A stretch of DNA of 31,702 bases from positions 1 to 31,702 of the IMG/VR virus record IMGVR_UViG_3300010149_000077; one strand, given 5' to 3'. The notes below the pieces were generated by a model, which saw nothing but the letters and a program-made list of their open reading frames with translations, was not told where the DNA came from and searched no databases. Positions 2,039 through 29,539 of the stretch are shown here, piece by piece (position 1 is the stretch's first letter; every line of letters begins with the position of its first letter). The position numbers and the translations under genes were made by a program. The stretch is from a virus.

Positions 2039-2794
2039 ATGAGTAAAGACCTTTTAAGGGTAGATGCTAGTAAAGAGTCTAGGCAAGTTGAGTTTTATAA
2101 TTCTTTGGACCAGGAAGAATATAATAAATACCTAAGTAAAATTCCGCCCGAAAAATTAATTAGAATTAAAAAGTCTGTAAACCGACTACAAACAGGTGTG
2201 CATGCATCTGCACCTTTAACTTGCTTAGGGCCCGAAAGTTGTCCCTTTATTAAGAAATGTCCTATACCTACCTTAAAAGCAGACTCTACTTTGGATTTAG
2301 GAGAAGCTTCTGACTATCCTATTGGTAGAGAATGTATTATGGAGAAGTTTTATGTAGAGCAAAAGATAGTAGACTATTTAAAGTATCTAGATGTAGATCC
2401 AAACAATCCTGTAGAAATGTCTATTGTAAATGAATTAGCTTTAATTGATTTATATAAAAATAGGTGTCTTTTTGTTTTGTCTAGTGGAGATAAAAGAGGT
2501 GAGGGTAGAGACTTCTTGATGGTAGATGTTACTGGATTTAACGAGAACGGAGATAGGGCGGAGTCTACTAAGTTGCATCCAGTTATAGATATGATTGATA
2601 GATTAGAGAGAAGAAGAGAGCGTTGGTTAGAACGACTTATGGAAACAAGAAAGTCTAAAGCAGACTTAATGTTAAAAATGGGTGAAAAACAAAATAACTC
2701 TAAGGTATTATCTGAAATACAAGCATTAAGGGAAGCTCTAGCTTCAGTAGAAACAGAAGCTGTAGATGATGAGGATATATTTATAGATGATTGA
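2039..2794 (+). CDS. Putative terminase small subunit (Cys-rich)
   Basis: A 251-residue protein at the head of the packaging/structural block; AGGAGAG sits 8 nt before the ATG. Residues 62-99 hold four cysteines (C62, C68, C74 and C99, in CLGPESC...KKC...GREC) that could bind a metal or an Fe-S cluster. The second half is helical and charged, with KLHPVIDMIDRLERRRERW (about 180-198) followed by a basic coiled-coil-like stretch and a very acidic tail (VDDEDIFIDD). The HPxxxxxxRLxRRRxR pattern together with a position just before the terminase region is typical of divergent phage small terminases, which recognise packaging-site DNA. It shares 8 nt with the next gene. The call rests on pattern and context; a general DNA-binding protein is the alternative. 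Confidence 0.45.
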   Translation: MSKDLLRVDASKESRQVEFYNSLDQEEYNKYLSKIPPEKLIRIKKSVNRLQTGVHASAPLTCLGPESCPFIKKCPIPTLKADSTLDLGEASDYPIGRECIMEKFYVEQKIVDYLKYLDVDPNNPVEMSIVNELALIDLYKNRCLFVLSSGDKRGEGRDFLMVDVTGFNENGDRAESTKLHPVIDMIDRLERRRERWLERLMETRKSKADLMLKMGEKQNNSKVLSEIQALREALASVETEAVDDEDIFIDD

Positions 2795-5700
2795 AGCTCT
2801 TAAATCTATGTATATGAATACTACAGGCAGACCTGTAACTGTAGACTTTGAGTCTGACGGTAGGCCTCGTAGAATGATTATAGAGCCAGGAGCTACTTTT
2901 GATGGTAACTTTTATGGTGCTACTAATGTAAGAATAGACGGTAGTGCTATATTTGATCCAGGTATGAAGAATATAGGTAACATTCTTCAACAAGCAGTTA
3001 TTTTAGACTATGAAACTACTAGTAAGTTTGGTGGAGCAGTAATTACAGAAGCTTCTGCTTATCATGTAGATCAGAATTTAGTTAAGACTTTTTATGTTAA
3101 GCCTTATCACATGGTTACAGTTGGTGACGGTGATTTCTTTGAGCAAGCTCAAATGTCTTCTAAAAAGACCAGACAGGTCAAAACTATAAAAAGTAATGTA
3201 ACACCTAGGGGTCACTTCGCTTCTTTCTTTACAAGGCATTTAAGTGACATATTTTTGTCAGAAGAATCTCGTTCGCTTGGATATTTTATAAACGACTTTA
3301 ATACTAATAAAATGACTGAGTCTTTTGAAAAAATTGTTAAAACTCCTATTTTTAATTTAAGTAAAGCTAGTGAAGATCTTCAAGACATGTTTGTTAAATT
3401 GCATACAGGTCAATTTAAAAATAGATTAGAGTTTGAAGAAGCTATTCTTACCTTAGATAGACAAAAGAAAATCTTTGATAAGGGTGCAGTTAGAGATGAG
3501 TTACTTAAGTACACTAGTGTAGTAGATAAATTTCAAACTAGGTACTATGTAAACTCTGCAGAAGAAGCAAGTCGTTTAGGTATAACTAGTACTTTATTTA
3601 CTAAGGCAGAAAATAGACAAATATTTGATACTTTATCTTACTTAAGAGCTGAGGGTGATATAGGTGTTGCTGATTTACAAAAGCGCACTGAAGATATATT
3701 TAGAGATAGGTTTGGTAGACCAGACATTGCTATACAAGCAGAGCAAGTAGATATTGAGGATTTAATCTTTAAAAGATTGCCGCAAGAAATTGAAGGTAAA
3801 AGCTTATATGCTTCTAACGTTTTATTTGAGTCTAAGCAAACAGGAGCAACTATTAGAGGTATAGTTGCAAACCAATTATTTAAAGAAGATCCAAATTTTA
3901 TAAATTTAGACCCAGATCAGTATAATGCTCGTATAAGAAACAAGCTAGTTCAAGTAGGTAATCCTTTTGAAGAAGTTATGCAGGCAGTTTCTTATACAGG
4001 AGATCCTTTTTATACAACAGGCAAAGAGTATACTTATGCTAAGTCTTTAGCTACTAAAGAGAATACATATGCTGATTTGTTTGAGACTTTTGTAAAAACT
4101 ACAGAAGGCCCTGGTAGGGCTAGAGATATTATCGATTTACAGAAAATGACTCAAGGCGCAACCCAAAGAATGGGGTTGAACGATATAGAACATCCATTAG
4201 GCATGTCGGTAGAAGTTCAAAGTCGTTTATTTGGTGCTGCACAAGAAATATCCCAAGGTGGTGACGCTGCTCAAATTACTAGACAGTTATTAGAAAAAGA
4301 AGCGCATATTTCTGCATCTGACGCTGCTATATCCTCTCCAAAAATTATGCAAGCTGCGCTTCCGTTTAATGTTGCTGCTGAAGAGTTTAGGCGAGGTAGC
4401 GAGTTAGGCAGAGCTTACTATAAGCAAGCATTAGAAGGCAGAGGACCCTTGTTGGGTTTATTTGCCTATGGGGAACTTACTAAGAAGTATTTTTCTACAG
4501 TAGGTCCTGACGATTTGGGACTAGCAGATATTCACTTTGAACAAAGAGTTGCTAGAAATTTAGAGTCTGTATTAGCGCCCGACAATTTACAAACATTTGG
4601 TAGCGTTAAAGGTTACAAGCTTTTAGAAATGCCTACTTTTAGAGTAGATAAGCAAGGTAACCGTATACAAGATTTGAGAACTACTAGTTACGCTAAAACT
4701 CAAACTTATATGGGTATAGAAGGTGTTTATTCTTCTGCAATTACTGATGCTAAAAAGTATCCAGGAGTAGATCCTGAAGCAGCAATACATAGATTGTTTG
4801 AAAAAGTAAACAGAGATGAAGTGCTAGTAGAGTTTGATGAAAAGCAAGGTCGGTATGTTTTACCTGAAGTAAGTGACCCTAAAGAATATTCTAGTAAATT
4901 AAGATCTAGGGTAAAAGCAATTACAGAAAGTAATGCAGAGCAAGTTGAATTATTTGCAAGACGCAGTAGTAGTAACATAATAGATGACGTTATGAATACT
5001 TTAAGAGCTTCTGATAAAGCATCTGCTATCCAAAGAACTTCTGTATCTGTAGGTGGTAGATCTAGTCTCGATAGAGCTATAGGTGCTCATGAAACTTTAA
5101 AGTTTGCAAAACGTACAATAGCTCCAGTAATGGCTTTTGGTTTAGCTATGTCAGGTCTGTCTACTTTAGAAAGATTTCAACAACCTGAGAGGAGTAGTTA
5201 TTTAATACCTAGTTACCACGATTGGTTTGCTTCTCAAGCAGAAATGTTTGGTGGCAATGAGTCTTTTGTTAGATCGATGCAACAGAAGACAGGCTATATA
5301 GAAGGTATGCAAGAGTCAGGAATGTCATCTATGTTAAGGAAGATGAGTTCTGACTTTGGTTCTCCATATACTGGTCCTGGATATTCTGATTTAACTTTAG
5401 AAAGAGGGGAAATTTTAAGAGAAAGGCAACGTAAGCTTAGACATATGTATACTGAACGTCACTTAGCACCTACAGGTGACATAAAAGGTATGATATCTAG
5501 CTTTATAAGAAAATCTTTTTCCCCCCAAGAATTAAACTATCAAAACTCAACAAAAACTCTACTAAATAGAGGTTCTTTTGGAGCAGAAGACTACACTAGT
5601 TTAAAAGGTAAAAACTTAACTAAAGTAACTTTAAGCAATAACTATAATATATCTGTACAAGATGCTGATACTATAACTTTGAAAAGAAATTATGGTAGTG

Positions 5701-6659
5701 GAGGAATGAAAAACTTTTTCTCAGGAAGAAAAAGTAATAAACCAATGTCAATACGTTTAGCAGGTATAGACGCACCGGAAACTGCTCACCAAGGTAGAGG
5801 TGCTCAACCTTATGCAGAAGCAGCTAAACGTATAGCTCAAGATATGATTAGTAGGGCTAAAAATGTAGAAGTAGTATTTGATGAAGGCGACTCTACTTAT
5901 GGCCGTAGAGTAGGTATGGTTTATGCTGATGGAGTAAATGTAAACTTAGAGTTAATTAAAAGAGGTGCTGCTGCTTATTTACCATATAGAGGTAAACAAA
6001 AAAGTACTATATATGACAACAGCGAATTTAGCTCTGCTCAAGAATCTGCATATCAGTCTAAAAGAGGTATGTGGAGATCTGATTACTTTAGAAGCTATAA
6101 GCAAATAGCTCAAGAGTCAGGTCAAACAGTTACTTTTAATACTTTGGTAAATACTTCAAAAGTAGCTCAAAATACTTCCTTGATGACAATGTACTCTGCA
6201 ATGAAAACTTCAGAAGCGTTTGGTATGCAAAACACAGTAGCTCAGCAAGCAACTGCAGACGCAGGCTTAGCTTTAAAAAATAAAGCTAGTAGGAGTGGAA
6301 GTAGTATATTTAAACCTGACTATATGAAGAATGAATGGACTGAGCCAAACCTTATGGGTATGCATCAGACCAATTCCATACTAACAGGAATGAATGAACT
6401 TAAATACGATTTAAACAAGTCAATAAAAACTAAAGGTGGTTATGCTTACAATAAGCATTCTGCTTTAAGAGTTAAATCTCTAGACTTGGAGTTAGCAGCA
6501 GAAACAACTTCTGCTAAATACAATAGCTTTAATAAAGATTATTTATTTAATACAAAAGAGCTAAATAAAAAAAGGCACCGTATTGCAGCAATGCAATTTT
6601 TACAACAAAGACAAAACAATAAAATGTTTAGTTATAGCTCAGGACACCATAGGATGTAA
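2787..6659 (+). CDS. Giant DnaQ-like exonuclease motif + staphylococcal-nuclease-like protein
   Basis: A 1290-residue protein. Near the N-terminus, VILDYETTSK (71-80) matches the ExoI motif of DEDD/DnaQ exonucleases (D74, E76); the later DEDD motifs are not certain (a candidate is around FINDF, 167-171). A full SNase-like domain lies at about 950-1095: DADTITL (D959, D961), RLAGIDAPE (R990, D995, E998) and YGRR (R1040) match the Ca-binding and catalytic Asp21, Arg35, Asp40, Glu43 and Arg87 of staphylococcal nuclease. A hydrophobic segment sits near 777-795 (TIAPVMAFGLAMSGLS), and the basic tail ends in HHRM. The long middle is unrecognised. It overlaps the previous gene by 8 nt and lies upstream of the large terminase. 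The role may be in DNA processing at packaging, or as a nuclease carried in the virion and ejected into the host. The SNase call is strong; the exonuclease call is moderate. Confidence 0.8.
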   Translation: MIEALKSMYMNTTGRPVTVDFESDGRPRRMIIEPGATFDGNFYGATNVRIDGSAIFDPGMKNIGNILQQAVILDYETTSKFGGAVITEASAYHVDQNLVKTFYVKPYHMVTVGDGDFFEQAQMSSKKTRQVKTIKSNVTPRGHFASFFTRHLSDIFLSEESRSLGYFINDFNTNKMTESFEKIVKTPIFNLSKASEDLQDMFVKLHTGQFKNRLEFEEAILTLDRQKKIFDKGAVRDELLKYTSVVDKFQTRYYVNSAEEASRLGITSTLFTKAENRQIFDTLSYLRAEGDIGVADLQKRTEDIFRDRFGRPDIAIQAEQVDIEDLIFKRLPQEIEGKSLYASNVLFESKQTGATIRGIVANQLFKEDPNFINLDPDQYNARIRNKLVQVGNPFEEVMQAVSYTGDPFYTTGKEYTYAKSLATKENTYADLFETFVKTTEGPGRARDIIDLQKMTQGATQRMGLNDIEHPLGMSVEVQSRLFGAAQEISQGGDAAQITRQLLEKEAHISASDAAISSPKIMQAALPFNVAAEEFRRGSELGRAYYKQALEGRGPLLGLFAYGELTKKYFSTVGPDDLGLADIHFEQRVARNLESVLAPDNLQTFGSVKGYKLLEMPTFRVDKQGNRIQDLRTTSYAKTQTYMGIEGVYSSAITDAKKYPGVDPEAAIHRLFEKVNRDEVLVEFDEKQGRYVLPEVSDPKEYSSKLRSRVKAITESNAEQVELFARRSSSNIIDDVMNTLRASDKASAIQRTSVSVGGRSSLDRAIGAHETLKFAKRTIAPVMAFGLAMSGLSTLERFQQPERSSYLIPSYHDWFASQAEMFGGNESFVRSMQQKTGYIEGMQESGMSSMLRKMSSDFGSPYTGPGYSDLTLERGEILRERQRKLRHMYTERHLAPTGDIKGMISSFIRKSFSPQELNYQNSTKTLLNRGSFGAEDYTSLKGKNLTKVTLSNNYNISVQDADTITLKRNYGSGGMKNFFSGRKSNKPMSIRLAGIDAPETAHQGRGAQPYAEAAKRIAQDMISRAKNVEVVFDEGDSTYGRRVGMVYADGVNVNLELIKRGAAAYLPYRGKQKSTIYDNSEFSSAQESAYQSKRGMWRSDYFRSYKQIAQESGQTVTFNTLVNTSKVAQNTSLMTMYSAMKTSEAFGMQNTVAQQATADAGLALKNKASRSGSSIFKPDYMKNEWTEPNLMGMHQTNSILTGMNELKYDLNKSIKTKGGYAYNKHSALRVKSLDLELAAETTSAKYNSFNKDYLFNTKELNKKRHRIAAMQFLQQRQNNKMFSYSSGHHRM

Positions 6660-6661
6660 TT

Positions 6662-7723
6662 ATGGCTACTACAACTGAAGAATTTGGATCTTTAGGTGGA
6701 ATAGGACTATCAGTACTTTTAGGTGCTACTCAAATTGGAGTAATGGCTCATGGTGCAAAGTATTCTATGGGTATGGAGCTTGTAACAGGAGCTAGCAATA
6801 CCCCTGCATTTATGAGTGCTAGTACACCAGGGCATCAATTAGGTCAACTGATTTTAAATCCAGCGGCAGATGGTTTAGGTGGTGCAACTAAAGCACTTCC
6901 AAATGATATAAGAAGTGTTTCTGAAGGGGTTTTAAAATCAGAAACACAAGCTGCAAAAAGAGCTTTAGCAAATACTGCGTTTAGAACTGGAATAGGAAGC
7001 ATGATATTACCAGTAGGCTTTACTAGCGTATTGGCTGCAGGTGCATATTCCGAAGGTGGTGGGGAAGAGTTAACAAGTTTTTTAATACAAGATGTTTTTG
7101 CAAATTATTATGGTAATAGAGTTGCAGAAAATACAGGTGCTTTAACTTCAAGAGCTAAAAATATATATAGCAGTAATTTATCTAGTGAGGTTAGTAGTTT
7201 AGGTAGTAATGCGACAGCTCAAAACTATCACACATTCCTAGGTAGTGCGCTTGCAAGAAGACTTGTAAATATTAGTGGTGCTTATATAGGTGCTGATGTT
7301 GGTTTTCAAGCAGGTAAAGCTATAGGTGAGGGTTTGGGAAACATGTTGTTTGATGATGCAAACACAGGTGCGTTTGGTATGATAGGTGGAATATTTGGCG
7401 CAAGAGGCGGTGCTTTCCTAGGCGCCAATTTAGCTAGAAGCCCATACTCTTTAGCAGCTAGTGCTTTAGTAATTGGTGGTGCTAAATTATTAACAGAAGC
7501 AACTGCTGATATACTAAAAACAGGTTTTGTAAAAGGTAGAGGTAGAGGATTAGATTTTGCAGGAGACTTGTCTGCTTACAATACAAATAGTGCTGTCACT
7601 ATGAGGCAAAGAGCATTACAATCTATGCATAAGTCACATTTAAATGCTCGTTCAGCTTTGGGGCAAGAAGCTAGTATTGTACATATGAATAGAGACTATT
7701 TTGCAAACCATAGAAGGTTATAA
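6662..7723 (+). CDS. Glycine/alanine-rich, membrane-active-looking phage protein
   Basis: A 353-residue protein with AGGATG before its ATG and 2 nt between the upstream stop and this start. Three glycine-rich hydrophobic stretches look like glycine-zipper or membrane-inserting segments: 9-37 (GSLGGIGLSVLLGATQIG), 109-129 and 203-278 (many GxxxG spacings, e.g. IGGIFGARGGAFLGANL). The C-terminus is basic and ends NHRRL. No family is recognised. Its place between the nuclease fusion and the large terminase, and its likeness in composition to the protein at 9942, suggest a virion or internal-head protein, perhaps one that inserts in the host membrane on DNA entry. That role is inferred. It ends in TAATG, overlapping the terminase start by one base. 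Confidence 0.7.
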   Translation: MATTTEEFGSLGGIGLSVLLGATQIGVMAHGAKYSMGMELVTGASNTPAFMSASTPGHQLGQLILNPAADGLGGATKALPNDIRSVSEGVLKSETQAAKRALANTAFRTGIGSMILPVGFTSVLAAGAYSEGGGEELTSFLIQDVFANYYGNRVAENTGALTSRAKNIYSSNLSSEVSSLGSNATAQNYHTFLGSALARRLVNISGAYIGADVGFQAGKAIGEGLGNMLFDDANTGAFGMIGGIFGARGGAFLGANLARSPYSLAASALVIGGAKLLTEATADILKTGFVKGRGRGLDFAGDLSAYNTNSAVTMRQRALQSMHKSHLNARSALGQEASIVHMNRDYFANHRRL

Positions 7724-9939
7724 TGAACAATATTAAAAAAGAAGTAGACAATTCTTTATTTGTAATAAATGAGTACGGTGTAAAGCATCAAGACCCATCA
7801 GGTAAAGTTTCAGAAACTGTTATAAAATATTATAAAGATAAATATAACATAAATACTGATGTGCATAATACTTGTGTGAATTGTCAAATAAGGCAAATAG
7901 AAAAATACAATAAGCCTTTTGAAATCAAATGCAGTGGTATCAAGAAGAAACTACCTGACGGTTCAGGCGCTAAGTTAAAAGCAATAAGAGAATCAAATCC
8001 AGATATAGATCAAGAACAAGCTTTAAAAATAATAAAAGCTACTATTGATCCTGTAGCTTGGTGTGAACTTATGTTTGGATTTTCTGATGGTGACGATCAA
8101 TGGTTCTTAAGAAACTATCAAAAAGAACAATTAAGATGCACTAGTAAAAGAATGGCAGTAAGAGAAGGCCGCCGTTCAGGTAAATCCTTTGCTATGGCCC
8201 TTAAGCTAATTTATATTGCCTTCAACTCTCTAATAGCTAGAGGTAGAGATGCATCTGGAAATATAGTTAAAGTTGGGCCTACAATAATGGTAGTAACACC
8301 ATACCAAGCGCAACTAACTAATATCTTTGAAGAAATGGAAAAACTTCTTAAAAGAAATAGAGAACTTTCTTCTGAAGTTCTAACAGGTACAGGTGATAGC
8401 TTATATATTAAAACTCCTACATTTAAAATGGAGTTTAAAAATGGTGGAGTTATACAAGGGTTTGTATCGGGTATAGGTATGCGTCAAGATGGTTCTGGTG
8501 GTGGTACTATGCGTGGTTTCTCTGCTGACTTAGTATACTTAGACGAAATGGATATGATTCCTGAAGATATCTTAGATAAAGTAATCAATCCTATTCTTGC
8601 TACTACTCCAAACACCTCTTTAATAGCTACTTCAACACCTATTGGTAAACAAGGCAAATTTTACGAGTGGTGTTTAAAAAGGCCTGACTTTAAAGAAGAT
8701 TATCTACCATCATCTGTTATCCCTCACTGGGAGCAAATAAAAGAAGAGATTCTTAGAGAATCTACTAAAGACTCTTTTGCAGCAGAATACATGGCTATCT
8801 TTATTGATGAAGAAAGTGGTGTATTTAAAAAAGATTGGGTTTATAAAGCTATGTCTGATTATCAGTATGTAGACACAATAAATAGCTCAAAACTTTTTAA
8901 TAAATTACATTTAAAAGGTTCTTCTGAAAGAATCATATGTATGGGTATCGACTGGAACAAAAATGCAGGCACAGAGTTTTATGTAGTAGGTTACTATCCA
9001 TCACTAGGTATATGGGTAGGTTTAGATGCTGTAAATGTAGCTGCATCAGAATACTCAGCTAAAAGATGGATAAAAGAGTTACTACAATTAAACTATAAAT
9101 GGAAACCTGACTATATTTATGCTGACGAAGGATACGGGCATACAATTATAGAAGATGTTAAGTATCAAGCTTATGCTCTTAGAAGTAAAAATAATAAATC
9201 TGCTATGGATCAAGAAACTGTAAAAATAACAGACAGATTAGTAAGCTTTAACTTTTCATCAAATGTAATCCTAAAAGATCCTATAACTAATAAAGATATA
9301 AAGAAATTAGGAAAACATTTTTTAGTAGAAAATACTATTCGTACTTTACAAGAAGGTTTATTTATCTTTTCAAATGAAGATAATAGATTAAAAGATCAGT
9401 TTTTTAATTATAAAGTTTTAAGAAGAAATCCTCAGAATAACAAACCTGTATACGGTAAAGCTAATGAACAAATAGGTGACCATAGGCTAGATGCACTGAT
9501 GTTAGCTTTAGGTGGTTTAGTATTAGAAGAGAGTGTTTATTCAGGTAGACAATTGACACCTTCTGTACCTACGTTCCACAGAACACAAGTTAACGGAACA
9601 GGTTTTAAAAGTGCTGACGATGAGATAAATGCTTTATTTAATAAAGCTCAAGAGCAAGGTTTTCCTGGGGCACTAAACGTTTTACGTATTATGCGTGGCA
9701 ACGGTTCAGAAGAAGAACAAAGAGCTATACATCAAAAATATATAGATGATGGTATTGTTCAAGAGCGTGGAAATAATAGGAAATCACGTAGTATAAATAA
9801 GAAAGAAGATGATTTTTCTTTATTAGAAGCTTTAAATAATAATTTAAATACACCTAACTCCTCTAAGACTATTGGTAGTGTATATCATACACCCAAAAGA
9901 GGTAGGTTTGGTTCTAAATCTAGATCTTGGAGGAAATAA
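7723..9939 (+). CDS. terL: Terminase large subunit (packaging ATPase-nuclease)
   Basis: A 738-residue motor that pumps and cuts DNA at the portal. ATPase: Walker A GRRSGKS (149-155), Walker B VYLDEMD with D274/E275, and the coupling motif ATSTPIG shortly after. Nuclease (RNase H-like): GIDWN (D410), YADEG (D468) and GDHRLDALML (D586, D590) supply the acidic metal ligands. It is long for the family. An N-terminal extension of about 110 residues holds CVNC plus a third Cys (C51, C54, C70), and a C-terminal extension of roughly 130 residues ends in a basic tail (RGRFGSKSRSWRK). The start overlaps the upstream stop (TAATG), preceded by AGAAGG. It is separated from the portal by five unrecognised genes, which is unusual. 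Confidence 0.95.
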   Translation: MNNIKKEVDNSLFVINEYGVKHQDPSGKVSETVIKYYKDKYNINTDVHNTCVNCQIRQIEKYNKPFEIKCSGIKKKLPDGSGAKLKAIRESNPDIDQEQALKIIKATIDPVAWCELMFGFSDGDDQWFLRNYQKEQLRCTSKRMAVREGRRSGKSFAMALKLIYIAFNSLIARGRDASGNIVKVGPTIMVVTPYQAQLTNIFEEMEKLLKRNRELSSEVLTGTGDSLYIKTPTFKMEFKNGGVIQGFVSGIGMRQDGSGGGTMRGFSADLVYLDEMDMIPEDILDKVINPILATTPNTSLIATSTPIGKQGKFYEWCLKRPDFKEDYLPSSVIPHWEQIKEEILRESTKDSFAAEYMAIFIDEESGVFKKDWVYKAMSDYQYVDTINSSKLFNKLHLKGSSERIICMGIDWNKNAGTEFYVVGYYPSLGIWVGLDAVNVAASEYSAKRWIKELLQLNYKWKPDYIYADEGYGHTIIEDVKYQAYALRSKNNKSAMDQETVKITDRLVSFNFSSNVILKDPITNKDIKKLGKHFLVENTIRTLQEGLFIFSNEDNRLKDQFFNYKVLRRNPQNNKPVYGKANEQIGDHRLDALMLALGGLVLEESVYSGRQLTPSVPTFHRTQVNGTGFKSADDEINALFNKAQEQGFPGALNVLRIMRGNGSEEEQRAIHQKYIDDGIVQERGNNRKSRSINKKEDDFSLLEALNNNLNTPNSSKTIGSVYHTPKRGRFGSKSRSWRK

Positions 9940-9941
9940 TT

Positions 9942-11579
9942 ATGAGTAGTGTAGCGAGAACTCTTTTAAGAGCAAGTAGAGAGCTTGATGAGCTTGTAGC
10001 TCCATCGGCAGGAAAGACGGTAAGTGAAGCCGGTAAAGTAACAATATCAAATCCAACTTATATCCCAGGTAGGAGGATAAAACCTGAAAGGTTTAGCAAG
10101 CCTGGAGGTAACCCATTAGAAACCACCCCTAGCAATTTGCACTACGATCCTACTAATCAAAGAACCCAACAAAATTTAGTAAACCAAAATCAACAATTAA
10201 GAGCAACTGCAAGAGCTGAAAGAGCGACTGCAAGAGTTGAACAAAATCAAAATAAAATAAGACAACAAGGAAATGTTCTTAGTTATGATGAATCAATTCC
10301 TTTAACGAGGGGCACTGAAGATACTCAAGGTGCTCTTAGGCACCAGATTGAAGGTAATAGAAATCTTAATTTGAATGCAAGAGGAACTGTTACTCCTGCA
10401 GATTTAGCACCAAAAATAGCTACTGTAGATATGTTAAATCAAGCAGCTGTAAGAGACCCAAGAATTAACGCAAATTTTGCAGAAGGTACAATTAAAAGAG
10501 AAGCTCCTGTAGTTTCAGAACACAGTAGTGGAAAAGTATTTAGAGATAGAGGTGCAACGCAAGATGAAGTAAAAGCTCTTTATAATCAAGAAGCTAGCAG
10601 GATGGGGTTAAATGAAGTACCAGCAGGAAACTTAGGTATTTCTCCAGAAAATGCTGCTGCTTTAGGGGGCGCTAATCAAAGAATTCTAGAAGCTCAAGAA
10701 ACAGGAAGTGTAGTAGGGTTAGTAAGAAGACAGAACGAACTTTATAATCAAGGAAGAGTTAGAGGATCAATAGATGGTGCAGTACCACAAGCAGGAACAG
10801 CCGAAGGCTTAGAATATGGATTGCTTGGTAATCAAATAGATATAATGGAAAGAAATGCTTCAAAGTCTGATTTATTTAGTGCTAACCCTGAAGCACAGCA
10901 AGCGTCTAAACGTCTTTTTAGCGGAGATGCGTACGACGAAGCAGTAAATATGCGTAATAATCAAAATGCTTCAATAGGTGCAAGTGATGGTTACGATGAA
11001 GTTGCAACTAATGCTGGAAATAATGCAGTTGCTAATGAAGCTATGAGAGGCGGTACTAATGGAAGTGGCTACTCAGGCCTTTACCAGCCTAGTCAAGGAA
11101 ATACACAATCTTCTGTAGGTGTTTTTAATATGATGGAAGCTGACGGAATGGCAGGTATTGCAGGTTCTGTTGGTTTTGGCGCTTTACTTGGTGGAACTGC
11201 AAACTATGCAATGGGTGGAGAATTTGGAGAAGGTGCTATGATGGGTGGTTTAGCAGGTGGTGCTATGAAGATTGGTGCAAGAGCTATACAGGCAAACGAA
11301 GCAGGTATAGAAAATTATCTCCAAAGAACTGCTTTAGGTGAAGGTATGGAGAGCATGAATAGGACAGAAGCAGGTCAAGCAATTAGAGAAATGCAGCAAG
11401 CTCCTGAAGGTTTAATGCCTGGTATGGCTTTTAATGTTTTGAAATCAGGAGCACCTTCAGTTGGTATGCAGAGTAGATATGCAGTTATGGGTGGTTCTAT
11501 GTTGTCAGGTGTAGCATTTACTGGTAGAAGAAATGATAAACGCAGAGGATTTAATGCACATAGAGGTAATAGAATATGA
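9942..11579 (+). CDS. Probable virion protein: Gln/Asn-rich N-half, glycine-zipper C-half
   Basis: A 545-residue protein. The start at 9942 (MSSVART) is set by GGAGG 8 nt upstream, 2 nt after the terminase stop. The N-terminal part is polar and low in complexity, rich in Gln, Asn, Arg and Ala (e.g. RATARAERATARVEQNQNK). Residues about 403-450 are glycine-zipper-like and hydrophobic (AGIAGSVGFGALLGG, then GAMMGGLAGGAMKIG). The C-terminus is basic (RRNDKRRGFNAHRGNRI). No family is recognised. It resembles the 6662 protein in composition and tail, so both may be internal-head or ejection proteins; that is inference. Its stop overlaps the next start (ATGA). Confidence 0.65.
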   Translation: MSSVARTLLRASRELDELVAPSAGKTVSEAGKVTISNPTYIPGRRIKPERFSKPGGNPLETTPSNLHYDPTNQRTQQNLVNQNQQLRATARAERATARVEQNQNKIRQQGNVLSYDESIPLTRGTEDTQGALRHQIEGNRNLNLNARGTVTPADLAPKIATVDMLNQAAVRDPRINANFAEGTIKREAPVVSEHSSGKVFRDRGATQDEVKALYNQEASRMGLNEVPAGNLGISPENAAALGGANQRILEAQETGSVVGLVRRQNELYNQGRVRGSIDGAVPQAGTAEGLEYGLLGNQIDIMERNASKSDLFSANPEAQQASKRLFSGDAYDEAVNMRNNQNASIGASDGYDEVATNAGNNAVANEAMRGGTNGSGYSGLYQPSQGNTQSSVGVFNMMEADGMAGIAGSVGFGALLGGTANYAMGGEFGEGAMMGGLAGGAMKIGARAIQANEAGIENYLQRTALGEGMESMNRTEAGQAIREMQQAPEGLMPGMAFNVLKSGAPSVGMQSRYAVMGGSMLSGVAFTGRRNDKRRGFNAHRGNRI

Positions 11580-14552: not shown

Positions 14553-16196
14553 ATGGATTCAAAACTAATACTAGAAGGTTTATTAGCCTTAAAAAACAAT
14601 AGCTATAAAAAAGATATGAATAAACCTCTAGAAGTTAGTTCTTTGTCTGGTGCTAGAGTTAAAAAGATTAACAACAGATCTATGTCTTATGCAGATAGAC
14701 ATAGAGGCAATTGGTTTAAACCTGAATATGATTTAACAGAAATACAAATAGCTCAAGATGTAGACAGTTATGTTTTCAAAGCTATTCAAAAGAAAGTACA
14801 TCGATTTGTTTTGGCAGGCTGGGAAATCGTAGGTAACGATAAAGAAACAGTTAGCTATGTTAGGAAAAGACTAAGAGAAATTGAATTAGTATCAGGTATG
14901 CCTTTTGATATTATAATGAAAGATTTAGCTCATGATCTAATTAGATACTCTAATTGTGCTTGGGTTAAGGTGCGCAATAAAGACGCTTCTACAGGCAAAG
15001 TTAGAAGTGTAAACGGCAAAGATATAGAGCCTGTAGCAGGTTACTTTTTACTACCTTTTGAAACCTTATGGTTTAAGGTTAAAAAGAATGGTGAAATTAA
15101 AAAGATAATGCAGGAAGTTCCCAACACAGGAGAAACAAAAGAGTTTGCTCCTCAAGACGTTATTCATTTTTATACAAATAAAAAACCTGGATTTACTATG
15201 GGGACTCCAGAACTACTACCTGTACTGGAAGATATATCTCTATTACGTAGATTAGAAGAAAATGTAGAAAATATGATAGATGCAAATCTACACCCATTAT
15301 TTCATTACAAAGTTGGTAATGATAATTTACCTGAGCGCTTTGGACCTGATGGTATAAAAGAAACAGATCTTGTTAGAAATACAATAGAATATATGCCTTC
15401 AGGAGGTATATTTGTTTCTGACCATAGACACAAAATAGAAGCCATTGGTTCTGAAGGTAAAGCATTATCAATACAAGATTATATAGACTATTTTAAGAAA
15501 AGAGTCTTTGCAGGTTTAGGAGTTTCACCTATAGATATGGGTGAAGGCGATACAGCAAATAGAAGCACTGCAAACACCTTATCTAAAATTGCAATACAAG
15601 ACGTAGAAGCTTTACAAAGGACAGTTAAAACTTTTGTAGAAACTTATATCATAAATGAGATTTTACTTGAGGGTGGATATGAATCGGCATTGCTAGATGA
15701 TAATCTTAAAGTAGAAATTAAATTTGGGAACGTTGATAAAGAAGAAAAGTCTAAGGAAGAGAATCAAGCTATTCAACTTTGGACAAACAATTTAATAAAT
15801 GAAACTGAAGCTAGAAAACGATTAGGTGAAAGACCTGTTGAGGTTAGAGACTTAAGTTATTACAAGCTGTACCAAGAACCGCTTGCTTTAGTTAAAGCGA
15901 TGGGTGCTTTCAGTGCTGCATCAGATGCTTTAGGTAAACATGAGTCTTCTAATATAAGTGAGTCTGGCATTAAAAAAGAAGAAGGGAATTCTGTAGAGAA
16001 ACAAACTCAAGCAGGAAGACCTAATAATAGTAAGCTTGCTAGTGCAGAAAATCTTTCTAAATCTATTTCAAGACCAAAGAATCAGCATGGAGAAAGATTA
16101 GCTCCTAAGTTTAATTCTGATGCTAAAAATATTGTTAAAAAAATAGTAAAAGAAGAAAATCTGCTAAATATAATTGATATTATTGAAAACAGTTAA
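14553..16196 (+). CDS. Portal protein
   Basis: A 547-residue protein forming the dodecameric DNA channel at one head vertex. It has the usual order of portal features: an N-terminal wing (DSYVFKAIQKKVHRFVLAGW at 73-92), a clip and beta region (YFLLPFETLWFKVKKNGEI, then DVIHFYTNKKPGFTMGTPEL), and a stem/crown part with YFKKRVFAGLGVSP and NRSTANTLSKIAIQD, which are characteristic of HK97/SPP1-type portals. The C-terminal 80 residues are polar and low in complexity. GAGG precedes the start. The protease follows after 49 nt, the normal head-gene order. Confidence 0.9.
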   Translation: MDSKLILEGLLALKNNSYKKDMNKPLEVSSLSGARVKKINNRSMSYADRHRGNWFKPEYDLTEIQIAQDVDSYVFKAIQKKVHRFVLAGWEIVGNDKETVSYVRKRLREIELVSGMPFDIIMKDLAHDLIRYSNCAWVKVRNKDASTGKVRSVNGKDIEPVAGYFLLPFETLWFKVKKNGEIKKIMQEVPNTGETKEFAPQDVIHFYTNKKPGFTMGTPELLPVLEDISLLRRLEENVENMIDANLHPLFHYKVGNDNLPERFGPDGIKETDLVRNTIEYMPSGGIFVSDHRHKIEAIGSEGKALSIQDYIDYFKKRVFAGLGVSPIDMGEGDTANRSTANTLSKIAIQDVEALQRTVKTFVETYIINEILLEGGYESALLDDNLKVEIKFGNVDKEEKSKEENQAIQLWTNNLINETEARKRLGERPVEVRDLSYYKLYQEPLALVKAMGAFSAASDALGKHESSNISESGIKKEEGNSVEKQTQAGRPNNSKLASAENLSKSISRPKNQHGERLAPKFNSDAKNIVKKIVKEENLLNIIDIIENS

Positions 16197-16245
16197 GTTT
16201 TTTATCAATATTAAAAAACATAAGTTTTTGCTAAAAGGTAAACAA

Positions 16246-18987
16246 ATGAGCCATATTATTAAATATAACGACTTTATTCAGATCAATCCTGATCAAAGAA
16301 TTTTGTCTTTAAATAAAAAAGATAAAATATCTTTAATAGATAGTATGCTGACTTCGGCTTATTCAGGTGGAAAAGGTTTGTTAATAACTTACGATCTTTC
16401 TCACTCAGGCCGTAGAATAAACAATAGAATTTATTCTACTAAAGGTCAGCAACGAGGAATTGATTCATTAACCCAACCATACGCTAAGCCAATACTTAAA
16501 AATCACGATCAAAGTTCTGAACCTATTGGTCGATTTGTTAGTGGTGAGTGGCAGAATCTATATGATGAAGCTACTCATTATTTACAGTCTTCTCAGAAAG
16601 CAATAGACATACATAACGCTTTTACAGATGACAATCCTGATAAAATATACACTACTCTTAAAAGCTTTGGTTTAATTGAAGATAAGAAATGGCCTGGATT
16701 AGGTCGAATGAGAGTTCAGGCAAACATAACTGATGAAGAAGCAATTAAGAAATTTATGGATGGTCGCTATCTCACTTTTTCTGCTGGGTCTACTACTGAT
16801 AGACATGTATGCTCTATCTGTCAGAGTGATTGGGCTAAAGATGGAATGTGTGAGCATAGGCATGGAAAAGTCTATGATGGAGAAACATGCGTGTTTATTA
16901 CAGGAGACTTCATTGTACTTGAAGGATCCGTGGTAAATACTCCTGCAGATGACTTATCGCAAATTATTAACATGGAGTTTAGTGACAACGATTCTAGCTC
17001 CAATAATAAAGACTACATCAAAAGCGTTGAGGAAATTATTTTGACAGATTCACTTTATACCGTTGGAGAGACTAATGAGCCAAAACAGTTACAAGAAACC
17101 AAGCAAGTCGATGCCCAAGAAAAAAACTACCAAAAAGAAAAAAAAGAAGAAGACCAAAAGCAAGTAGCATCAAGTGACAAAGAGTTTGATCATATGCTTA
17201 TTATTCCTGAAGAAAAAATGAAGCAACTTCACGGGACAGGTAAAACTGACGTTGTTGCAGTTTCAGGAAAACAAAAAATGACTATTAGATTGATTTACAG
17301 AACTAAAGAAAACACTCCTGGTGGAGAAGATTTTCTTTATGAATCTTTTGAAGAGTTTGTAGAAGAATCATTTAATGATGAAAAAATGTTTAAAGTTCCT
17401 GCAGGAGCTAAAGGCAATGCTCAAAAAGTTCTTAACTGGAAAGAAAAGCATGGATCTGAAGTCAAAGGAATGACTTCAGTAGGTTGGGCTAGAGCAAGAC
17501 AACTTGCTAGTAAATCAGAGATTGGTTTATCTACTGTAAGGAGAATGGCTGCTTTTGCTAGACATAGGAAGAATGCAGCAGTAGCTCCAGAATTTAAAGA
17601 AACTCCTTGGAAAGATCGAGGTTATGTAGCTTGGTTAGGATGGGGAGGAACCTCTGGTGTAGATTGGGCTATCAAAACTAGTGCTGCTAATAAAGATAGT
17701 TTACAAGAAGATGCGTATAAGTCCTCTCCAAAAGGCAAGGGAGCTAAAACTCCTGCAAAACCAAGTGAAAGGATTAAAGGCTCTAAAAAGAATAAAGAAG
17801 GTTCTGCATCTAAAGCTAACAGTAAAATTTCAGTAGGTTCTGTTTTAGAAACTTTAAAAGAAAAAGTAAAAAAACATAACGAGAAGCATGGAAAAACAAA
17901 AGGCAAGCGTGTAAGTCTTGGAATGCTCAAGGCTGTATACCGAAGAGGGGCAGGCGCATTTTCTTCTACTCATAGACCTGGAATGTCTAGGTCTGGTTGG
18001 GGAGTAGCAAGGGTTAATGCTTTCTTAAAGCTTGTAAGAAGTGGCAGCCCATCTAACCCTAAATATAAACAGGATAACGATTTATTGCCTGCAGGTCATG
18101 CAAGAAAATCATCTAATAAACCAAAAAAAGATAATAAGGATTTTACTATGAGTGAAGAAGTTATTTCAGAAGAAGTTGTTATTGACTCAGAAGAAGTTTC
18201 TGAAGATTCCGATATGCAAGAAGAAGTTGTTGAACCTACAGGCGAACAACAACTAGAGCATGATGAGAGTCTAGGTGAAGAGAAAGAAGAAGAAGATACT
18301 CAAGCGCCACCTCCAGTTCCACCTGTAGAGGATTCGGAAGATGTTGATTGGGAGTTTTTAGATCTTGCTATGCAGGGTATACTTTCTCAACAAGATGCTC
18401 AGTTAAGTACTGAGCAAAGAAATGCTTTAGCAGAAGATGTTTTCTGTGGTCCTGATCGTTCATTCCCAATTCCTGACTGTGCGCATGTTACTGCTGCAAA
18501 ACGTCTGATTGGGAGATACAAAGGTTCTGATTCTGTTAAATCTAAGATTATGGCTTGTGTAAATAAGAAAGCCAAAAACATGAAATGCGACAAGTCAGAC
18601 GATTACTTAGAGCTAGAGTCTAGATACTCTGATCTTTTGAGTAAATACAACTCTTTAGAAGATAAACTTTCATTAATTGTTGAAAATATTTTAGAAAAGA
18701 AAAATGAAGATTCTTTTGAAAAAGTTGAAGAAAAGCTTGAAAACGACACTACTGAAGAAGTAATAGTGAATGATGTTAAAGTAGTTAGTCCTTCAGAGCA
18801 TATCTCAGAGAAAGAAACTGAACAAAAAATGACAAAAAAGCCTGCAAGTAAATTAGGTGTTTTTGAACAATCTATTGTAGATACTTATAAAGAAATCAAA
18901 ATTGAACATGGTGAGATTTCTGCTGAAGACTATTTGGCTAGCAAGGCCAACTACTTACCTCGTGGCTTCCACCCAAATAAACTTTAA
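16246..18987 (+). CDS. Prohead protease-scaffold fusion with extra phage domains
   Basis: A 913-residue protein. The start at 16246 is set by AAAAGG about 7 nt upstream. Protease domain, about 40-235: NHD with H87 and LTFSAG with S169 are the expected His and Ser of HK97-type prohead proteases, and GSVVNTPAD (217-225) is the typical last strand. A zinc-ribbon-like insertion follows the Ser: C179, C182, C192, H194/H196, C205. Two Trp/Arg-rich modules often seen in phage head-maturation proteins follow (about 380-475, ending WLGWGGTSGVDWA; and 555-598, YRRGAGAFSSTHRPG). Then come an acidic stretch, a small domain (733-785, FCGPDRSFPIPDCAHV) and a coiled coil near 788-830. The C-terminal third looks like scaffold and has its own internal start at 18148. 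The mature protease would clip head proteins and itself. Confidence 0.85.
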   Translation: MSHIIKYNDFIQINPDQRILSLNKKDKISLIDSMLTSAYSGGKGLLITYDLSHSGRRINNRIYSTKGQQRGIDSLTQPYAKPILKNHDQSSEPIGRFVSGEWQNLYDEATHYLQSSQKAIDIHNAFTDDNPDKIYTTLKSFGLIEDKKWPGLGRMRVQANITDEEAIKKFMDGRYLTFSAGSTTDRHVCSICQSDWAKDGMCEHRHGKVYDGETCVFITGDFIVLEGSVVNTPADDLSQIINMEFSDNDSSSNNKDYIKSVEEIILTDSLYTVGETNEPKQLQETKQVDAQEKNYQKEKKEEDQKQVASSDKEFDHMLIIPEEKMKQLHGTGKTDVVAVSGKQKMTIRLIYRTKENTPGGEDFLYESFEEFVEESFNDEKMFKVPAGAKGNAQKVLNWKEKHGSEVKGMTSVGWARARQLASKSEIGLSTVRRMAAFARHRKNAAVAPEFKETPWKDRGYVAWLGWGGTSGVDWAIKTSAANKDSLQEDAYKSSPKGKGAKTPAKPSERIKGSKKNKEGSASKANSKISVGSVLETLKEKVKKHNEKHGKTKGKRVSLGMLKAVYRRGAGAFSSTHRPGMSRSGWGVARVNAFLKLVRSGSPSNPKYKQDNDLLPAGHARKSSNKPKKDNKDFTMSEEVISEEVVIDSEEVSEDSDMQEEVVEPTGEQQLEHDESLGEEKEEEDTQAPPPVPPVEDSEDVDWEFLDLAMQGILSQQDAQLSTEQRNALAEDVFCGPDRSFPIPDCAHVTAAKRLIGRYKGSDSVKSKIMACVNKKAKNMKCDKSDDYLELESRYSDLLSKYNSLEDKLSLIVENILEKKNEDSFEKVEEKLENDTTEEVIVNDVKVVSPSEHISEKETEQKMTKKPASKLGVFEQSIVDTYKEIKIEHGEISAEDYLASKANYLPRGFHPNKL
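18148..18987 (+). CDS. Nested in-frame scaffold protein (internal start)
   Basis: Within the protease gene, AAGGA (18136-18140) sits 7 nt before an in-frame ATG (18148; MSEEVISEE, residue 635 of the long protein). This would give a separate 279-residue product: a very acidic segment (Glu-rich), a Pro-rich linker (APPPVPPV), the FCGPDRSFPI module, a coiled coil and a C-terminal segment that could bind the capsid protein (NYLPRGFHPNKL). Overlapping protease/scaffold genes with an internal scaffold start are known from phage lambda (C/Nu3). The SD and the domain break are visible; use of this start is inferred. Confidence 0.5.
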   Translation: MSEEVISEEVVIDSEEVSEDSDMQEEVVEPTGEQQLEHDESLGEEKEEEDTQAPPPVPPVEDSEDVDWEFLDLAMQGILSQQDAQLSTEQRNALAEDVFCGPDRSFPIPDCAHVTAAKRLIGRYKGSDSVKSKIMACVNKKAKNMKCDKSDDYLELESRYSDLLSKYNSLEDKLSLIVENILEKKNEDSFEKVEEKLENDTTEEVIVNDVKVVSPSEHISEKETEQKMTKKPASKLGVFEQSIVDTYKEIKIEHGEISAEDYLASKANYLPRGFHPNKL

Positions 18988-20416: not shown

Positions 20417-21754
20417 ATGTCTTTTAAATTAATTGATGGAACAGAGCTAGAATTACCTAGCAACCGTAAGGCTGCCGCTCGTTATCTTGCTGACATGATT
20501 CGTAATCGTGGTCTTCTTCCCAACGAAGACAAGCAAATTAGCTGGGAGACCTTTGCTAATACTATTTCTCCAAAGAACCAAGATTTGGTACGTGCTTCGG
20601 AGATTACTCCACTTCTACAGGAGTCTATGGAGATTCTTATCCGTGAGCCTGTAGAACCAAACATGACTATCACACCACTCTTTACTCGTGTTCAGGCTCA
20701 AGGTCTTAACACTCAAATTCTTGCAGGTGCTATGGGCGCTGTTTATGCAGGTGATGTACAAGAGCATGGTACTTACCCAGAGGTTAACTTCCAAATGGGT
20801 GGTGCAGTTTCAACTGCTTATATCGGTAAGAGTGGTATTGCTGCGAGCTTTACTGACGAAGCTCTTCGTTATAGTACTTTTGATATCATGGCTAAGAACC
20901 TTGAACTTATGGGTAACGCACTCGTACGTCACAAGGAGCAAAAAGCAGTACAATTCCTTAAGCAACTAGGAACTGCTCTTTTTGACAACCTTAACCCTGC
21001 GCAATCTATCTACGGTGTAACTACTGGTCGTGGAATGAATGACGCAGGTAATGCGCTTGAAGGTAATGGTTCACTTAGCATGGATAACTTGATGCGTGCT
21101 ATGGCACACATGAGTGAAGAAGGATTTACTCCTAATATTCTTCTTATGCACCCATTGTTCTACTATAGCTTCATCCAAGACCCTGTACTTCGCAACATGA
21201 TGCTTGCTCATGGTGGTGGATCAATCTTTAACCCATATAGCGGAGACCCAGGTCCTTTGGCTCCTTACAGCAATGGTGCTCTTGGTGCTCGTGGTCCTTC
21301 AGCTGGTACTCGTGTTGTGAATCCTCGTGGTACTGGTACAAACGGTTCAGCACAAGCTGAGTCTATTAGCTCTGTACTAGAGCGTAGTCAACTAATGACT
21401 TCTGCACCTAACCTACCTAGTTACTTCCCGTTCAACTTGCAGGTTATTGTTTCTCCTCTTTGTCCTTACGATCCAGAGTCAGAGCTTGGTGATATCTTCT
21501 TACTATCAGGTGGTAACGTTGGTTTCCACTTGGTTGATGAAGCACCTACTACTGTCGAGTGGCGTGATGAGAATACTGAGACTGTTAAAGTTAAGATTCG
21601 TGAGCGTTACGGCTTTGCTGTTGCACATGAAGGCCAAGGCGTTGGTGTTCTTAAGAATGTTAAGCGTGCCGAGAACTTGTGGGATGGAACTACTGATGTT
21701 CAAGTTTCAGCAGTTGGTAGTGTAACTGATGCGACTGTACTAAGTAACATCTAA
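20417..21754 (+). CDS. Major capsid protein (HK97-fold type)
   Basis: A 445-residue protein that builds the head shell. After a helical N-terminal region (about 1-60, probably trimmed by the protease) it shows the expected order: ITPLLQESMEILIREP, an E-loop-like stretch with GAVYAGDVQEHGTYPE, the spine-helix region (FDIMAKNLELMGNALVRHKEQKAVQFL) and a P/A-domain segment FTPNILLMHPLFYYSF (about 236-251), then C-terminal strands (FNLQVIVSPLCPYDP, YGFAVAHEGQGVGVLKNV). Arg is almost always CGT and Leu CTT, the signature of a heavily translated gene. AGAGGGA precedes the start. A strong terminator follows. Confidence 0.88.
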   Translation: MSFKLIDGTELELPSNRKAAARYLADMIRNRGLLPNEDKQISWETFANTISPKNQDLVRASEITPLLQESMEILIREPVEPNMTITPLFTRVQAQGLNTQILAGAMGAVYAGDVQEHGTYPEVNFQMGGAVSTAYIGKSGIAASFTDEALRYSTFDIMAKNLELMGNALVRHKEQKAVQFLKQLGTALFDNLNPAQSIYGVTTGRGMNDAGNALEGNGSLSMDNLMRAMAHMSEEGFTPNILLMHPLFYYSFIQDPVLRNMMLAHGGGSIFNPYSGDPGPLAPYSNGALGARGPSAGTRVVNPRGTGTNGSAQAESISSVLERSQLMTSAPNLPSYFPFNLQVIVSPLCPYDPESELGDIFLLSGGNVGFHLVDEAPTTVEWRDENTETVKVKIRERYGFAVAHEGQGVGVLKNVKRAENLWDGTTDVQVSAVGSVTDATVLSNI

Positions 21755-28510: not shown

Positions 28511-29539
28511 ATGAGAATTATAATCGTTAGTCTTTTTTTAATGACTTTTGCTCTTTGCAAAGAAGTAAAAGCGCAACCGCAAAAAAATAATGTAAATACA
28601 AATGTAAACCCTATAAATGTTGACGTTAATGAAGGTAGTAGGGGGGTGAGTAGGAGTACTAGTTATAGAAGTGATGGTAATCGAGATCGTAAAAGCAATC
28701 CTAGGGATAGAGCTCATGTGGCTCTCAAGAAAAGAAGAGAAGATGATGAGTTTGAGAAAGAGTATCAGGAATATTTAAGGTTTGTAAATGATCACAACAA
28801 AAGAGTTGGCAATAAATTTGAACTTCCTGTATTAACAAAAGAACAGTACATAACAAACTATATATTCAGACCAGGAACTTTGCCTGCTACTGAATTATAC
28901 TCAATCATTACAAACAATACTGTTTCTTCTTTAATAAGCAACAATCCCGATTTAAACTTAAGCGAGCTATATCGTCTTGCTGACAAAAAATATAATCTTA
29001 AAAAACCAGAAACAAAACCTTCTCCTAAAGCAATAGCGCCGAAAGCAAATTATAGGTATTCTTTTTCAGGATCAGACTGCAATGTATTTGCAAAAACTAA
29101 TAATAACAGTCCGATACATTTAGATTCTGTAAGTACTGTATCTGTTTCCATATATGAAGCAAAAGCACCTGTTAGGAGACTAGGGTATTCTTCTCCTGTA
29201 GGGTTTACAGGTAATATAAGAACTGTTGCAGGCTCTATTATTTGTGTACTTAGAGATAATCATCCGTTAAGTGAGTTAATGGGTTATCCAAACAAACATA
29301 AAAAACATCGAGATGATAAAGATGAAGTTTTTAATAGCTCCAATTTTAATTCAGGGGCATTATTTCCATTTGATTTAATGTTAATGTATAAGAACGAAGT
29401 AGGTGATGCTTTAGGCTTTTCAATTTATAATGTTGAAATTATATCTGAAGGTATTGTTACTTCTACAAATGATATGATTACTGAAGTAGTATTACAGTTC
29501 CAAGCTACTCATATAGATCAAATAGAAAAGAAGAGTTAA
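28511..29539 (+). CDS. Second tail-tube-fold protein, with N-terminal signal peptide
   Basis: A 342-residue protein. Residues 1-21 look like a Sec signal peptide: one Arg, hydrophobic core IIIVSLFLMTFALC, then KEVKA with a plausible signal-peptidase-I site before QPQ. A polar, basic spacer follows (about 22-100), then a helical part. Residues about 183-342 repeat the tube pattern of the upstream gene: SGSDCNVF, SVSIYEAKAPVRRLGYSSPVGF, IRTVAGSIICVL, LFPFDLMLMYKNEVG, YNVEIISEGIVTSTND. No later Met could give a protein lacking the hydrophobic N-terminus and keeping the spacer. It could be a minor tube, tail-tip or baseplate component; export of a tube-like protein would be unusual. The leader hairpin suggests separate translational control. 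Confidence 0.65.
   Translation: MRIIIVSLFLMTFALCKEVKAQPQKNNVNTNVNPINVDVNEGSRGVSRSTSYRSDGNRDRKSNPRDRAHVALKKRREDDEFEKEYQEYLRFVNDHNKRVGNKFELPVLTKEQYITNYIFRPGTLPATELYSIITNNTVSSLISNNPDLNLSELYRLADKKYNLKKPETKPSPKAIAPKANYRYSFSGSDCNVFAKTNNNSPIHLDSVSTVSVSIYEAKAPVRRLGYSSPVGFTGNIRTVAGSIICVLRDNHPLSELMGYPNKHKKHRDDKDEVFNSSNFNSGALFPFDLMLMYKNEVGDALGFSIYNVEIISEGIVTSTNDMITEVVLQFQATHIDQIEKKS

Follow-up and report, generated by a model that had tools for sequence, protein, structure and literature searches.

A late phage protein that combines a DEDDh-type exonuclease variant with a staphylococcal nuclease domain, a candidate for delivery with the virion

Introduction

T4 Alt, the phiKZ inner body and the ejected proteins of P22 and N4 provide the precedent for proteins that are carried in phage heads and then injected, and to our knowledge none of them is a double nuclease. 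These are head-carried, injected enzymes and hydrophobic proteins, and only in this respect do we compare them with the protein described here, no sequence relation being claimed. As for the enzyme families concerned, the DEDDh exonucleases (DnaQ, RNase T, ExoX) have an ExoI motif D-x-E-T-x-G, an ExoII motif N-xx-F-acid and an ExoIII motif H-x4-D in an RNase H-like order of strands and helices, and the activity of staphylococcal nucleases (SNase, PF00565) is Ca2+-dependent.

A closer parallel is found in the 'polyvalent proteins' (Iyer et al. 2017, PMC5512222), proteins of great length from portal-terminase phages that combine several enzymes, zincin peptidases among them. Their genes lie with those of virion proteins, and they are predicted to be carried in the particle and injected; the text of that study contains neither SNase nor DnaQ. 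In phage 0305phi8-36, 55 virion protein genes were identified by mass spectrometry, and in its relative BtI1 the baseplate hub protein bears a staphylococcal nuclease domain (PMC2147016), so that this lineage offers a precedent for virion proteins with a nuclease domain. Here we analyse a viral record of 31.7 kb (the window, i.e. the whole stretch of DNA examined), which a comparison of the terminase large subunit (TerL), together with the ME3 annotation, groups with 0305phi8-36, ME3, MTATph1 and KLEB27-3. It encodes a predicted double nuclease; a literature search that covered few subscription papers and did not extend to bioRxiv returned no description of the family as such.

Results

The protein is encoded by a single uninterrupted frame of 1290 codons (2787-6659, plus strand), whose homologues lie upstream of TerL across related loci. 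Residues 1-56 are present in only about one third of the homologues and the exact start codon is therefore tentative. The gene is followed on the same strand by genes for a 353-aa protein with several hydrophobic Gly-rich segments and the tail NRDYFANHRRL (6662-7723), for TerL (7723-9939; Pfam Terminase_6N, 9e-10; phrog_2, 2.7e-32) and for a 550-aa protein with a hydrophobic Gly-rich segment near its C-terminus and the tail RGFNAHRGNRI (9927-11579). Matches in Pfam and PHROGs to TerL, portal (14553-16196) and major capsid protein (20417-21754) place all of these in one gene cluster with the nuclease gene. The first-pass annotation had described the latter as lying beside the terminase; TerL is indeed close by, but the 353-aa hydrophobic protein intervenes and the two are not adjacent.

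Some other genes of the window have unusual features. Just upstream of the double-nuclease gene, 2039-2794 encodes a Cys-rich protein (C-x5-C-P-F-x3-C...C), possibly a metal-binding late regulator or a packaging partner, with look-alikes in a comparable place in KLEB27-3 (gp005), MTATph1 (CDS0247) and ME3 (ME3_9, which is interrupted by an intein-like insertion). A 937-aa ORF at 16174-18987, with a prohead-protease-like N-terminus, a DUF5824 match and several short matches of unknown function, occupies the usual place of the protease and scaffold. The product of 28511-29539, which starts with the signal-peptide-like segment MRIIIVSLFLMTFALCKEVKA, is flanked by two tail-tube-like proteins to which it appears paralogous.

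A search with the 1290-aa protein itself yielded one near-identical contig and nothing more, and TerL was therefore taken as an anchor. The resulting collection comprised 55 loci, to which an alignment-based scan added further members. Wherever a locus extends far enough upstream, the second gene before TerL codes for a homologue of 973-1612 aa; a few loci have an additional small ORF in between. For the analysis of conservation, 55 unique sequences were reduced to 48 non-redundant ones at 90% identity; their median pairwise identity is 0.28, and the exonuclease motifs stay invariant at 22-28% identity. All 12 large related records (108-193 kb) carry the gene, and 11 of them have no second SNase match; a second, partial match, broken by a stop and away from the large protein, was seen in the record of L180 (G014:C1:35707-35934). 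A tblastn search of isolated phages with two homologues gave no match, and among the matches listed in a scan of cellular genomes there was no full-length relative, just cellular SNases.

The N-terminal sequence VILDYETTSK (residues 71-80, 2997-3026) had been recognised at first pass as ExoI of a DEDD exonuclease, and the alignment bears this out, D74, E76 and T77 being present in 48 of 48 homologues. The 'unrecognised' stretch of about 850 residues that was said to follow holds the two remaining motifs: ExoII, N344-V-L-F347-E348 (3816-3830; family consensus WIANAxFESKQ), located by alignment and profile comparison, and ExoIII, E505-A-H507-x4-D512 (4299-4322), with E505, H507 and D512 conserved in 48/48. 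Both had been missed since an insertion of about 200 residues hides them; this segment (residues ~116-315, 3132-3731) is variable and mostly helical, with low alignment occupancy and low-confidence patches in the AlphaFold2 model. Between ExoII and ExoIII runs an invariant R-D-x-x-D strand (R446-D-I-I-D450, 4122-4136, with D447 and D450 invariant), which by analogy may be the counterpart of the 'DT' strand after ExoII in DnaQ-type enzymes. Together with the insertion and a helical extension, the predicted exonuclease domain would cover residues ~66-560 (2982-4466), as judged from AlphaFold2 and hhalign.

The Asp and His residues expected for ExoII and ExoIII are thus only partly as in the canonical enzymes: H507 and D512 are invariant, but position 348 of ExoII, an Asp in canonical DEDDh exonucleases, is Glu in 47 of the 48 homologues and Asp in one (L057). 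Exonuclease activity is for this reason not certain and canonical activity should not be assumed; from its motifs, we class this half as a 'DEDDh-type variant' and not as a canonical member. It also departs from known DEDDh exonucleases in the ~270 residues that separate ExoI from ExoII, in its helical extension and in lying below Pfam detection, as a single-sequence search of the 1290-aa protein against Pfam and PHROGs gave no match in this half.

Profile comparisons and structure prediction support an exonuclease domain. Compared with 11 cellular DEDDh enzymes, the full family profile gave a separate hit at each of the three motifs, in colinear order, and with the insertion columns removed hhalign aligned the two groups over ExoI and ExoII with a probability of 96 and a score of 62.5. 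None of 50 column-shuffled profiles scored above 16.8, and the reversed profile scored 13.4. The A2 profile found a weak DnaQ match at ExoI among PDB sequences (E 0.16); a carbonic anhydrase match that outscored it was judged spurious. AlphaFold2 modelled residues 57-592 with a pLDDT of 85 and a pTM of 0.87, as a three-strand start, a helix-strand-helix at ExoII, a strand-helix and a long helix with H-x4-D, a confidently modelled order that fits the RNase H-like one of DEDDh enzymes. Absence of such a fold, which would have refuted the first-pass reading, was not what the model gave, but Foldseek with the whole 536-residue model found no significant match in the PDB, probably because the long insertion splits the fold; the matches were weak and partial, with ExoX, RNase T and DexA among them. 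Among predicted viral structures it matched A0A6J5NQ80 (E 9e-17) and the ME3 protein, the latter with a probability of 0.97 and an E of only 0.066.

The SNase domain (5649-6086, from Pfam and a homologue model; Pfam part 5751-6077) gives the only Pfam match in the protein (residues 989-1097, E 1.2e-21, 77.6 bits against a cut-off of 21), and phmmer relates it to staphylococcal nuclease structures with an E of 7e-15. All five catalytic residues reported in the first-pass annotation, D961, R990, D995, E998 and R1040 (equivalents of D21, R35, D40, E43 and R87), are at these positions and conserved in 48/48 homologues. A model of L044, a full-length short homologue (973 aa; pLDDT 75.8), has the OB-fold and matches SNase crystal structures with an E of 3e-6 and a target-normalised TM of 0.77-0.80. 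The domain is therefore like PF00565 members in being complete with every catalytic residue, and unlike them in being embedded in a 1290-aa late phage protein and in having Ala or Ser in place of T41 of SNase. Conservation, profile comparison and AlphaFold2 together uphold the earlier proposal of a DEDD-type exonuclease and an SNase in one late protein: as far as sequence can tell, this enzymatic identity is very likely correct, and the protein is probably active, at least on its SNase side.

The hydrophobic segment noted at first pass also proved to be a family feature. It is a helix, often Gly/Ala-rich, at residues 777-795 (5115-5171), in place in 37 of 37 homologues, 39-78 residues before a family-specific DFGSPY-TGP motif (residues 856-864, 5352-5378; six residues almost invariant). 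Its mean hydropathy is 1.46; in 36 of these 37 homologues no other part of the protein is as hydrophobic, and as a transmembrane helix it is only borderline. The broader motif [DEQ]FGS[PG][WYF] is confined to family members among all viral and cellular ORFs searched.

The protein ends in ...SYSSGHHRM (6627-6656; consensus FNSPIGHHRM), with H1287 conserved in 48/48 and M1290 in 45/48, and the proteins that flank TerL on both sides have similar basic-aromatic tails (NRDYFSxYRRM and RGFNxHRGNRI). A loose tail pattern matched 50 family ORFs and 44 others of 1213, and as it was written after the tails had been seen, its specificity counts for more than its count: the 44 others belong to the two TerL-flanking families, apart from one fragment of the nuclease family, and in control ORFs from cellular loci the pattern occurred once in 1781. 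In a 161-kb relative it is found in exactly three proteins, the double nuclease and both hydrophobic TerL flankers.

Among more distant relatives, ME3_11 of Acinetobacter phage ME3 (A0A172PZZ4) lies two genes upstream of TerL and has a hydrophobic segment and the motifs FDTETTG, NHRFE (N-xx-F-E as in the family) and HTALSD (H-x4-D), but it has only 529 aa, no SNase domain and a different C-terminal tail. A0A6J5NQ80 (UniProt, uncultured Caudovirales, 1342 aa), the structural match mentioned above, is a probable family member deposited as 'SNase-like', a name that reflects the SNase half only. In L200 and L202, SNase is accompanied by DFGS-like motifs and an HExxH motif; the exonuclease profile had no match in the 29-kb record of L200, in which a single ORF (L200:7884-9977) combines two FGSGW motifs, SNase and HERVH in a nuclease-protease arrangement. 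L207 and L208 have, by eye, ExoI-like motifs and an Asp at the probable ExoII. Directly before TerL of KLEB27-3 no counterpart is obvious, but a hydrophobic protein nearby ends in ERIGHHKMGNSKFQ, and MTATph1, whose record begins at TerL, has no obvious counterpart at the other end of the record. ME3 having the exonuclease half without SNase, and L200 SNase plus HExxH, the C-terminal part looks, from these sequences, like a constant carrier and the enzymes like its interchangeable load, as would be expected for modular injected effectors (PMC5512222). The product of L201:6039-10685, a 1548-aa protein with SNase encoded among tail-like genes, recalls the SNase-bearing hub protein of BtI1 (PMC2147016).

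Discussion

Late synthesis with the head genes, the hydrophobic helix and the tail common to two hydrophobic neighbours make it plausible that the double nuclease travels in the virion, and suggest that it is loaded into the head and ejected at infection. According to this proposal, a 3'-5' exonuclease of DEDDh type (Asp to Glu variant) and a C-terminal SNase-type endonuclease, with a helical region between them that contains one hydrophobic helix, would be made late alongside the head genes and recruited to the assembling head through the family-specific C-terminal part, i.e. the DFGSPY motif and the GHHRM tail, together with the two hydrophobic proteins with similar tails. At infection all three would exit with the DNA or just before it, the hydrophobic parts would aid the crossing of the host envelope or sit in it, and the nucleases would cut nucleic acid in the new host, be it the chromosome, a plasmid, the DNA of a rival phage or DNA trapped in the envelope. 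We consider packaging somewhat more probable than its opposite and put delivery into the host at about even odds, as we do the explanation as a whole, in which a dual nuclease is loaded in the head, co-ejected with its two hydrophobic neighbours and cuts nucleic acid in the host. Two nucleases packed with the phage's own DNA would require a silencing mechanism; one possibility is that low free Ca2+ in the producing cell silences the SNase.

We read the protein as a candidate multidomain effector that would be packaged in the virion in the manner of the 'polyvalent proteins', and that is undescribed in the literature searched. Like polyvalent proteins (PMC5512222), the family joins at least two disparate enzymatic domains per polypeptide (two nucleases here, SNase and HExxH in L200) and belongs to a portal-terminase phage in which its gene shares a cluster with TerL, portal and major capsid; the HExxH motif of the distant members resembles that of the zincin peptidases. 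A further-reaching idea, which we hold to be possible but doubtful, is that the double nuclease and the two hydrophobic proteins encoded around TerL form a set for ejection, with a common C-terminal address tag for head loading and with exonuclease, SNase and a probable metalloprotease exchangeable on a DFGSPY-to-tail chassis.

The strict linkage to TerL would also fit a packaging or head-completion nuclease that acts at the portal with TerL, in the producing cell only, and trims branches, flaps or ends of replicating concatemers, a job well suited to an end-trimming exonuclease and a structure-tolerant endonuclease. However, a nonspecific SNase next to the motor would endanger the genome, KLEB27-3 packages its DNA with no counterpart visible near TerL, and the hydrophobic helix and the tail common to hydrophobic proteins would be left unexplained, so we regard this role as unlikely. 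An unpackaged enzyme for late intracellular degradation of host DNA, nucleotide scavenging or defence against rival phages seems less likely again: it would be in keeping with two broad-specificity nucleases and with the SNase genes of SPbeta-type phages, some of which are annotated 'chromosome degrading nuclease', but not with the late head-gene position and the conserved hydrophobic helix and tail, scavenging enzymes being usually early and separate.

Since SNase depends on Ca2+, as is generally known, the domain might instead act outside the cytoplasm, where Ca2+ is abundant, as part of an envelope or tail-entry protein that clears biofilm or periplasmic DNA during entry. The BtI1 hub protein with its SNase domain (PMC2147016) and the L201 SNase protein among tail-like genes would agree with this, but the gene at 2787-6659 is in the packaging and head cluster, not among tail genes, and we think such a role improbable. 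It is very improbable that the exonuclease domain serves in proofreading, as a subunit of a PolIII-alpha-type polymerase of the phage. A relative does encode a PolIII-alpha polymerase, and a canonical RNase_T-family exonuclease was not found in 11 of the 12 large, possibly incomplete records, but PF00929 misses the double-nuclease family too, so that other divergent exonucleases could escape detection as well, and the domain is fused to an SNase in a late structural operon and followed by a hydrophobic helix. Three simpler readings were discarded: a chance motif (48/48 conservation), an ordinary stand-alone phage SNase (fusion and gene position conserved throughout) and a defence system (the sole PADLOC match is the SNase domain).

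If the protein is packaged as we propose, it would be the first double nuclease known to us to enter a host with its phage, and the question would arise of how the genome in the virion is protected from two nucleases. A C-terminal loading tag common to three proteins, if true, would be a simple rule for finding ejected proteins, and would serve especially in large uncultured phages, whose virion proteins mostly lack names. The exonuclease half has so far been unannotated in deposited relatives, and the idea is testable since ME3, a cultured phage, has a relative of this half at the same locus.

Several of the related genomes have further unusual genes. In both ME3 (L003:9152-11434) and KLEB27-3 (L004:5296-8250), TerL has apparent intein-like insertions near Walker A. 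The 161-kb relative encodes a 1022-aa protein rich in collagen repeats (L247:5384-8449), and also an IMPDH/GMP reductase-like enzyme and pieces of PolIII-alpha with an intein match.
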